Origin: Candidatus Omnitrophota bacterium
GTDB lineage: Bacteria > CG03
Reading direction: 5' to 3'
NCBI GenBank assembly: GCA_013791745.1
Contig: VMTH01000161.1
Span: forward strand, 1-36,959
DNA length: 36,959 bases
Part shown: piece after piece, positions 33,949-36,959 of the stretch
How positions within the stretch are numbered: position 1 is the first letter of the stretch
Layout: each line of letters starts with the position of its first letter
Position numbers and translations under genes: made by a program
The notes under the pieces: generated by a model
The model's input: the letters and a program-made list of their open reading frames with translations, nothing else
Told to the model about the DNA's origin: nothing
Database searches by the model: none

Positions 33949-34641
33949 ATGAAAAATCTCTACCGCAACACGATGTTCATCCTTATATTTATCTGCTTTT
34001 TATCCATGGCCGGCAGCATCTTTTTTTCAAACGAGACAACCGTACGCATCTTTGTGACGATCTCAGACGTAATAATCGCGGCCGGCCTGATTTTTCTGGT
34101 TTTCTCATTTTCAAAAAAACTTTCAAAAATAAACAATCAGCTTCAGATAGTGTCATCCGGCTCCTTTACCACGGATTTTCCCGAAAAAATAAATAACGAA
34201 CTGGATATGCTGACACTCAAACTCAGCAAACTGTTCAACAATATGAATAATTACGACAGGCTCCGCGCAAAAAATGTGGCGAAATCCGCGAAAGCGTATA
34301 TGACTATCAGTATAAATGTCTCCGATGCCGTTATAATGGTCGACTTTGACGAAAACACAGCTTCTCTCAATCCCTCCGCGCAAAAAATATGGAACCTTGA
34401 AACACGATCCTTTCCGCTGGATGTCGTAACAAAGCACGCCCAGAATACGGAGTTTAGAAAATTTCTTGATCGGGTCGCGGTCTCCGGAGAGGAACAGGCC
34501 AAGGTTTCCGTGTATTTCCCATCGGCCTCACGCAGAGAAGTCTCTGTCAAAGCCGTCCCCATAAAAACAATTGACGAAAAAACAACGCTCATACTGCTCT
34601 TTGTCACCACCGTGGACGGCAAAAAGGAAAACGGCAAATAA
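33949..34641 (+). CDS. Membrane protein with HAMP-like and PAS domains, no output domain
   Basis: The 230-residue protein has two transmembrane helices (about 7-26 and 33-54) with only a few residues between them. A HAMP-like helical linker follows (about 55-105; FSKKLSKINNQLQIVSSG, then NELDMLTLKLSKLFNNM). A PAS domain comes next (about 118-220; ISINVSDAVIMVDFDENTASLNPSAQKIWNLE), ending VPIKTIDEKTTLILLFVTTVDG. This is the front half of a PhoR/WalK-type sensor kinase, but the frame ends after PAS with no HisKA or ATPase domain. It follows ktrA by 7 bases, so it may sense a condition relevant to K+ transport. Alternatively it is a kinase gene cut short when the A+T-rich DNA to its right was gained. 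Confidence 0.75.
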   Translation: MKNLYRNTMFILIFICFLSMAGSIFFSNETTVRIFVTISDVIIAAGLIFLVFSFSKKLSKINNQLQIVSSGSFTTDFPEKINNELDMLTLKLSKLFNNMNNYDRLRAKNVAKSAKAYMTISINVSDAVIMVDFDENTASLNPSAQKIWNLETRSFPLDVVTKHAQNTEFRKFLDRVAVSGEEQAKVSVYFPSASRREVSVKAVPIKTIDEKTTLILLFVTTVDGKKENGK

Positions 34642-34723
34642 TTCAGCAACTATAAATTATCCTCCCCCAGGGTTTGGCAAGTATCCTGTTAGAATGCTTG
34701 CATTTTCAAAATCCAAAATATAC

Positions 34724-34753
34724 TTGCAGGTTTCAACAGAAATATGGTATAGT
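34724..34753 (+). promoter_or_regulatory. Candidate promoter of the methyltransferase gene
   Basis: TTGCAG (34724-34729), an 18-base spacer and TATAGT (34748-34753). A second option, TTGGCA (34765-34770) with 16 bases to TAGTAT (34787-34792), would put the start of transcription at the ATG. The region is A+T-rich, so chance matches are likely. Confidence 0.4.
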
Positions 34754-34796
34754 TTAGCTGGAAATTGGCAGCAAATAAAATTTACATAGTATATTT

Positions 34797-35480
34797 ATGA
34801 AGAAACAACATATTTCGGTTAAAAAAGCTTATGATTTCTGGGCTGAACAATATGAATCAGATGGAAATTCAATGATGGCTTTGGAAGATAGCGTATTTAA
34901 TAAAGAATTTACATCATCATTAAATGATAAAAAAATTTTAGATTTGGGCTGTGGTACAGGAAGACATACCTCAAAATTTATTGAATTAAATGCGAAAGTA
35001 ACAGGAGTTGATTTTTCTACCAACATGCTGAAAAAAGCAAAAGAAAATAATAGATCTAAGAACGTAAGATTCATTCAGCATGATATCTCTAAGAGACTTC
35101 CATTTAAAAATAAATATTTTGATATTGTCTCTTGTTCTCTAGTTTTAGAACATATAAAAAAATTGGATGAAGCATTTTCTGAAATGAAAAGGGTTTGTAA
35201 ACAAGATGGGTATATTTTTATAACAGAAATGCATCCTGATATGAGATTAAAAGGTAAGCAAGCTTCATTCTGCGATAGCAAGGGTAAAAGATACTATCCC
35301 AAAAGTTATCCTCATAAACTTGATGATTTTAAATATCACATTAAGGCTTCTCAGTTAAAGATTGCGAAACTAAAAGCATATCGAGGAACAAAAGCTTTGG
35401 CTAAACAAACTGAGAGAGCAGTTCAATATATAGGATATCCAATGTTGTTAGAATTTAAACTGATTCCTGTGGAGACTTAA
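34797..35480 (+). CDS. Class I SAM-dependent methyltransferase, A+T-rich, probably acquired
   Basis: A 227-residue UbiE/Methyltransf_11-type enzyme. Motif I is ILDLGCGTGRHTSKF, followed by VTGVDFSTNMLKKAKE (motif II region with the ribose-binding Asp), FIQHDISKRLPF and FDIVSCSLVLEHIKKLDEAF, then the EMKRVCKQDGYIFITEMHPDM strand. The substrate is unknown; small-molecule or quinone-type methylation is typical of the family. The codon usage is strikingly A/T-ending (for example many AAA, ATT, TTT, GAA), unlike every other gene here. No Shine-Dalgarno sequence precedes the ATG. It sits alone between the ktr genes and the rRNA operon, a common landing site for foreign DNA. Confidence 0.88.
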   Translation: MKKQHISVKKAYDFWAEQYESDGNSMMALEDSVFNKEFTSSLNDKKILDLGCGTGRHTSKFIELNAKVTGVDFSTNMLKKAKENNRSKNVRFIQHDISKRLPFKNKYFDIVSCSLVLEHIKKLDEAFSEMKRVCKQDGYIFITEMHPDMRLKGKQASFCDSKGKRYYPKSYPHKLDDFKYHIKASQLKIAKLKAYRGTKALAKQTERAVQYIGYPMLLEFKLIPVET

Positions 35481-35788
35481 TATCGTTTAAATTTAAGCAA
35501 ACAGTTCCAATAATTCTTTCTGTTCAAAACTGTAACAATAATTCCACTATAAAAAAGCTATCTACCTTGGAGATAGATAGTATTTCTATTGAAATCTGCA
35601 AAAATAATTTCACCATCAAAAAACTAACATTCGTGTAGTAATATAGTCAAAATCTCCTCATATTTTATAGTGTCAGTATTTTGAGGGCAAAACGAAATAT
35701 TCTTGATGTTTGAGAAAAGAAAAGTTTAGATAAATTCTGTTTTAAACAGTTCTTTGAAATGAATCAAGAGGATGTGTGGTTTTAATTT
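35481..35788. other. A+T-rich intergenic region between methyltransferase and 5S rRNA
   Basis: No credible gene on either strand. It holds two copies of an imperfect 30-base direct repeat (35530-35559 and 35596-35625; 24 of 30 positions match). A 6-bp-stem hairpin (35558-35576) lies between them. A short palindrome ctgttttaaacag lies at about 35737. Transcription from both sides would converge here, but I see no classical GC-rich hairpin with T-run. Confidence 0.6.
35530..35625. repeat. Imperfect 30-base direct repeat pair flanking a hairpin
   Basis: Both copies read ctg(t/c)aa(c/a)aataatt(c/t)cac(t/c)at followed by an A-run and ct. The hairpin ctatct/agatag at 35558-35576 sits in the spacer. 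Possibly a remnant of a mobile or integrated element; there is no open frame. Confidence 0.45.
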
Positions 35789-35898
35789 TGGCGCCGCCCT
35801 ACTTTCCCGTGCGTAAACACAGTATCATCGGCACTGAAGGTCTTAACGGCCGTGTTCGGAATGGGAACGGGTGTTGCCCCTTCGCTATAGGCGCCAAA
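35789..35898 (-). rRNA. rrf: 5S ribosomal RNA
   Basis: The minus-strand sequence closes with terminal arms TTGGCGCC and GGCGCCAA. It contains the conserved loop segments CACCCGTTCCCATTCCGAACACGG and the 3' GGGAAAGTAGGGCG. About 110 nt, normal for bacterial 5S, and it follows 23S in the usual order. The ends are set from helix I and may be off by one or two bases. Confidence 0.95.
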
Positions 35899-35947: not shown

Positions 35948-36197
35948 TCGACCGTATGAACAAGACTGAATAATACGGTCAAGTCGTTCGGTCTATTAGT
36001 ATGGCTCAGCTCATTACCTCCTCACTCAAACCGAAGTCTAAACTCGTGGGTAATGGTCTCAATGCCCGAGGGCATCTCAACCGGCGATTACTCGCCTTAC
36101 ACCTGCCACCTATCAAACTGGTAGTCTTCCAGTGACCTTATTGCCTTGATCCTTAACCCGAAGGCTAAAGACCTGGACAGGGAAATCTTATCTTGGA

Positions 36198-36233
<36 letters not shown>

Positions 36234-36468
36234 TTGCCAAACGTAGCTACCCAGCGATGCTCCTGGCGGAACAACTGGTACACCAGAGGTTTGTCCATCT
36301 CGGTCCTCTCGTACTAGAGACAGCTCTCCTCAAATTTCCTACGCCCGTACCAGATAGGGACCGTACTGTCTCACGACGTACTGAACCCAGCTCACGTACC
36401 ACTTTAATTGGCGAACAGCCAAACGCTTGGGAGCTTCTCCACCCCCGCGCTGTGATGAGCCGACATCG

Positions 36469-36763
36469 CTATTGTGTTTTCTCTTATTTCTAAGAGTATC
36501 GGACTATATCTTCATCCCGCCTTTCGCGGGAGTTGACGTTTTATGGAAAATAAATTTTCCATCTGCTCTTTCCCTATCAAATTATAGAGCAAGTCTCTAC
36601 GGGGTGAAGCACATAAATTTTATGTGCTCACTTCCCACGGTATTTCCTTTTGTTTTTCTTTCACAAAACAATTAAGGGTTTACCGTTATAAGTCAATTTT
36701 TTCTTGCAAAATTTTTGCAAGTAACAGGTAACAGCATTACTGCTGATGCACCCCGATATGTTA
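36469..36763 (-). ncRNA. Group I intron in 23S rRNA at position 2500
   Basis: A 295-nt insertion splits 23S between E. coli U2500 and C2501. The 5' exon end GCACCU pairs with the internal guide GGGUGC (P1, with the required U-G at the splice site). The 3' exon CGAUG pairs with UAUCG just before the guide (P10). The intron ends in G. Core elements: the P4 arms ACGGUA/UACCGU, a P6 stem (GCACAUAAA/UUUAUGUGC), P7 GACU with the S-element AAGAUAUAGUCC, and a P9 hairpin CUCUUA-GAAA-UAAGAG. There is no homing endonuclease ORF, and it is too short to hold one. The boundaries are firm because P1, P10 and the exon match to E. coli agree. Confidence 0.93.
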
Positions 36764-36814
36764 AGGTGCCGAACAGAGCCGTTGATGTGAACTCGCGGGC
36801 TCTACTAGCCTGTT

Positions 36815-36959
36815 CAATCACTGAACTTTAGCTATAGCTAAAGTGAAAGTTATGATTAGACTATATCTTCATCCACCGAGCTTTCGCACAGCGAAAGCGA
36901 AGGTCAAGAAGAAGCGTAGCTTCTTCGAGCCAACTTCGGTGGAGACGGCGAGTTCACAT
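36815..36959 (-). ncRNA. Group I intron in 23S rRNA at position 2449, 3' part
   Basis: The 3' exon resumes at AACAGGCT (E. coli A2450) and the insertion ends in G, so the site is after 2449. The visible 145 nt contain the S-element AAGAUAUAGUCU (P7 3' strand). Before it is a large P8 arm closed by CCACCGA/UCGGUGG, which carries two sub-hairpins. After it is a strong P9 stem (ACUUUAGCU/AGCUAAAGU). The P1-P6 half and the P7 5' strand lie beyond the window edge, so an internal ORF cannot be ruled out. Confidence 0.88.

Follow-up and report, generated by a model that had tools for sequence, protein, structure and literature searches.

In CPR bacteria, as reported by Tsurumaki et al. (2024, PMC11270868), group I introns of the 23S rRNA gene are common and cluster in domain V, near the peptidyl transferase centre; 222 of these introns are ORF-less, and others carry LAGLIDADG genes, decayed copies included. 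The intron described here likewise lies in the peptidyl transferase centre but is found on a contig from a different phylum. The archaeal IA3 introns at LSU/2500 (IA3.2 and IA3.3; Nawrocki et al. 2018, PMC6125680) share both the site and the group I class, but reside in archaeal hosts and measure ~800 nt from their listed coordinates, whereas the present intron is an ORF-less element of 295 nt; the same study also removed a bacterial LSU contig that had been mis-binned into a Lokiarchaeota assembly. The cyanobacterial L2593 introns (Haugen et al. 2007, PMC1995217) have in common with it a short P5, a short P2 and the P7.1/P7.2 extension, but occupy another site and carry a LAGLIDADG gene. Finally, the introns of the Nealsonbacteria L034, L045 and L103 occupy site 2500, are identical to ours over the first 16 intron bases and possess a similar core; the difference lies in the P6 region, where the LAGLIDADG_2 gene is intact in L034 and decaying in L045 and L103, and where our intron has a short hairpin.

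The stretch that we analysed (the window) is a contig of 36,959 nt assigned to a Candidatus Omnitrophota bacterium, hereafter the host. Its 23S rRNA gene contains, from 36763 to 36469 on the minus strand, a 295-nt insertion. The exons read GGCACCU/CGAUGUC, which in E. coli numbering (ACCU/CGAUGUC) places the insertion between the residues that correspond to U2500 and C2501. The covariance search suggested as a check by the first-pass annotation gave a match to Intron_gpI (RF00028) at 36773–36480 on the minus strand, covering the full model (positions 1–253, cmscan) with 39.6 bits and an E-value of 1e-7, a score that falls short of the gathering score of 50 yet is far from chance. In addition, the folding energy of the intron RNA lies 7 SD under dinucleotide shuffles, and the longest open frame within it spans 35 aa, so that the intron is counted as ORF-less. 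The insertion is confirmed as a genuine group I intron with these exact coordinates, as the first-pass annotation had proposed, and is of an already known kind. Its main elements are as follows:

36469–36763, minus strand: the ORF-less group I intron of 295 nt at site 2500 of the 23S, IA3-like in its short P5 and P7.1/P7.2-type extension, identified from RF00028, structure, covariation and same-site homologs
36748–36769, minus strand: P1, exon GCACCU (36769–36764) with intron GGGUGC (36753–36748), ending in U·G
36754–36759, minus strand: intron side of P10, AUAUCG, pairing with 3' exon CGAUGU (36468–36463)
36502–36595, minus strand: P7 (36595–36592 with 36505–36502), enclosing the P7.1/P7.2 hairpins, the 3' strand of P3, and P8
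36677–36674 with 36649–36646: P5, assigned by eye, CCUU with AAGG

The core helices P2, P3, P4, P7, P8 and P9 are all present. The splicing elements read earlier from the sequence hold up as well: the P1 guide helix, formed by exon GGCACCU and intron GGGUGC, ends in U·G, P10 comprises 6 bp, one being G·U (five to six had been proposed), and P9 is a GAAA-capped hairpin (CUCUUA-GAAA-UAAGAG), with G as the last intron base. Across 36 site-2500 introns aligned with MAFFT (P5 was left out of the count), paired cells amounted to 100% in P7 and P9, 99% in P3 and P4, 96% in P2, 92% in P10 and 88% in P8, and slid controls for P2, P3, P4, P7, P8 and P9 reached at most 68%. The U·G pair of P1 at the 5' splice site occurs in 36/36 sequences, and double (compensatory) changes were found in 5/5 pairs of P2, 5/5 of P3, 5/6 of P8 and 5/6 of P9, as well as in P4. 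The P7.1 and P7.2 hairpins can be folded in the 295-nt intron but are only 32–45% paired across the alignment, which lends no support to their conservation. Since the cyanobacterial L2593 introns have the same layout of P7.1/P7.2 and short P5, the intron would likely belong to subgroup IA3.

Within the host genus, G003 is the sole reference (G001 and G002 gave no 23S match), and comparison with it and with Patescibacteria divides the rRNA region of the window into the following segments:

35786–35898, minus strand: 5S rRNA, native (RF00001, 88 bits; 99.1% identical to G003)
35990–36393, minus strand: native 3' end of the host 23S rRNA, near identity to G003
36364–36393, minus strand: proposed chimera junction, 30 bases, GAGCTGGGTTCAGTACGTCGTGAGACAGTA, common to the host genus and Patescibacteria L152/L153
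36394–36468, minus strand: 23S exon directly 3' of the intron, Patescibacterial type (71/75 with L071, 56/75 with G003; at most 95% to Patescibacteria)
36764–36814, minus strand: 23S exon from site 2449 to site 2500, Patescibacterial type (98% to several members of a single Patescibacteria order; 15/51 differ from G003)
36815–36959, minus strand: another group I intron, at site 2449 of the 23S, of which the contig end leaves the 3' part, with a GGATGAAGATATAGTC core and a terminal G ahead of A2450

In G003 site 2500 is uninterrupted and without an intron (GGCACCTCGATGTC). From 36393 downward, the contig has no mismatch to G003 in the first 94 positions and 6 in the first 275, besides one 41-base gap further on, against 34 of 126 in the two exons that flank the intron (15/51 plus 19/75; Fisher p = 2e-13 for 34/126 versus 6/275). 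The question of whether the flanking exons match the host lineage was thus answered against a native intron, the match being to Patescibacteria instead. The best exon identities among 247 genomes of one Patescibacteria order were 98% for the 5' exon and 95% for the 3' exon, with no exact donor of the foreign segment found in this set, and L118 (Patescibacteria) shows one difference over the ~70 bases ahead of its N run. The 5' half of the intron, taken together with the adjoining exon, shares 83% identity with Nealsonbacteria RBG_13_42_11 (L034), and 84 bases of the site-2449 piece are 89% identical to an intron of Nealsonbacteria L103; site-2449 introns are found in other Patescibacteria too. 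The host lies outside the Patescibacteria order searched, its phylum having yielded just 15 other genomes, in which (many of them without a 23S match) the junction pattern of the intron had no match. When the bin was searched with the 23S of G003 for a second, native fragment, it returned the window piece only; an LSU model search of the whole bin matched no 23S, and because it overlooked even the piece in the window, its negative outcome was not used. These comparisons do not support the idea that the intron is the host's own: the sequence of intron-free G003 matches that of the contig only on the downstream side of 36394, and the exons are foreign.

The 30-base stretch shared with Patescibacteria, which belongs to a conserved part of the 23S, sits exactly where host-type sequence changes to Patescibacterial. 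Contigs of the same-family genomes G004 and G005 stop at this stretch or no more than ~15 bases away, G004 running 12 bases beyond and showing host-type AAAACGGCACGC there, and Patescibacteria L118 becomes N at this stretch. Judged from the sequences, the shared stretch and the contig ends at it have the look expected of an assembly-graph branch point. Since the contig is collinear with G003 upstream of the rRNA genes, the foreign part is limited to its final ~565 bases, and the contig ends 565 bases beyond the switch, inside another Patescibacteria-like intron. At this very end, 36939–36959 forms a 21-base inverted match (86%) with exon positions 36785–36805, a possible fold-back artefact of assembly. 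The AT-rich stretch at 34607–35742 was also considered as a chimera boundary and rejected, the spacer and the 5S beyond it being native; this stretch, which separates the rRNA genes from the operon upstream of them and includes a class I methyltransferase gene (34797–35480), is missing at this position in G003.

Intron structure, foreign exons, an abrupt switch and an intron-free 23S in the same genus can all be read from the sequences, and an assembly chimera appears to be the best explanation for the contig end. Our preferred reading, to which we assign a probability of roughly 0.8, is that the insertion is a genuine, ORF-less group I ribozyme of Patescibacterial origin that was joined to the host contig by the assembler. 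We infer that the join is artificial: a metagenome assembler would have connected the fragment to the host contig at the ~30-base 23S stretch common to both, and the true owner would most likely be a Patescibacterium from the order to which Nealsonbacteria belong.

Alternatively, the contig could be correct, the host having gained the 2500 and 2449 introns from a Patescibacterium by homing, with co-conversion replacing ~130 exon bases. Homing is known to co-convert flanking sequence, related introns encode homing endonucleases, H89 and H90–92 remain paired although they lie inside the foreign segment, and the collinearity with G003 upstream extends as far as the rRNA genes. Nevertheless, we consider this history unlikely: it requires recombination across phyla at ~70–75% exon identity, the switch falls on the shared stretch where other assemblies break, the foreign segment is confined to the contig end, and no other genome checked from the same phylum shows it. 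A real mosaic would be a naturally hybrid catalytic centre, in which two introns and ~130 Patescibacterial exon bases had moved into the peptidyl-transferase region of a bacterium from another phylum.

Scanning GTDB genomes for the 3' junction pattern (G then CGATGTCGGCTC) gave at least 117 records, and from these and related loci at least 101 other site-2500 introns of 251–1292 nt could be extracted, most of them bacterial. Together with the published archaeal LSU/2500 introns (PMC6125680), this count does not bear out the earlier impression that site 2500 is occupied mainly outside bacteria. The records listed come from Patescibacteria, Omnitrophota (chromosome-level records included), Chloroflexi, Actinomycetota, Acidobacteria, Elusimicrobia, a tick Coxiella endosymbiont and Thaumarchaeota. 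Group I introns at site 2500 in Thaumarchaeota / Nitrososphaerales are represented by L029, L040, L058, L084, L094, L099, L110 and L112; the site-2500 junction pattern also occurs in L007 and L106, whose sources are Coxiella endosymbionts of Ornithodoros ticks, the L007 intron measuring 832 nt with a longest frame of 68 aa; and L119:1-8000, a contig in a Lokiarchaeota bin, combines a site-2500 intron with a bacterial-looking 23S exon and may be a mis-binned bacterial contig. A few other pattern matches were set aside as not being introns, for example L064 and L077, in which position 2500 is just a G, and L018, L028 and L073, which lack an intron end. The 3' junction pattern was unmatched in viral contigs, and a literature search under the name 'L2500' found nothing. 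Since most of the records are metagenome bins, some of them may suffer from the same misattribution.

Of the 102 site-2500 introns listed, ours among them, 25 contain an open frame of 150 aa or more. L034 has a 230-aa frame that passes through the P6 region and encodes LAGLIDADG_2 (E = 1.5e-39), and L103 retains only a LAGLIDADG_2 remnant (E = 3.8e-6); the 295-nt intron encodes no homing endonuclease and has only the short P6 hairpin in this region. Most simply, it would be an ORF-less derivative of these LAGLIDADG_2-carrying relatives, from a mobile site-2500 family that would have been spread by LAGLIDADG_2 homing endonucleases.

In the true owner, the intron is predicted to splice itself out of the 23S precursor. 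In the first step, exogenous guanosine would attack the bond between U2500 and the intron, held by P1; U2500 would then attack behind the terminal G, while P10 positions C2501, and GGCACCU-CGAUGU would be restored. Should the element instead have decayed and lost the ability to splice, it would be retained or be excised as a spacer that leaves a fragmented 23S rRNA; its score below the Rfam gathering threshold is compatible with this, and the title of Everett et al. (1999) names an unspliced bacterial 23S group I intron. Yet every core helix, the U·G of P1, P10 and the terminal G are intact, and an insert retained at U2500/C2501 would be expected to disable the ribosome, which makes decay highly improbable. 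That a native intron is merely flanked by exons evolving fast within the genus, as assignment of the contig to the host bin and its native remainder might suggest, is next to inconceivable given the excess of differences over the adjoining 275 positions, their match to one Patescibacteria order and the host-type sequence at this position in same-family G004.

The intron is therefore real but has probably been assigned to the wrong organism. Of the earlier reading, the ORF-less site-2500 group I intron with its splicing anatomy is supported, but not the statement that this organism's ribosome relies on self-splicing; because intron and exons look Patescibacterial, the intron says little about the host's own ribosome. 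Correcting the attribution means that an rRNA fragment at a contig end is not to be taken as the host's own, a point that Rfam, or any reading of the intron alone, would overlook, and the first-pass annotation did not mention the exon mismatch. For the family, introns at site 2500 turn up in many bacterial phyla and in some archaea, in forms ranging from an intact endonuclease gene through to ORF-less, although the exons of every metagenomic case call for the same check.
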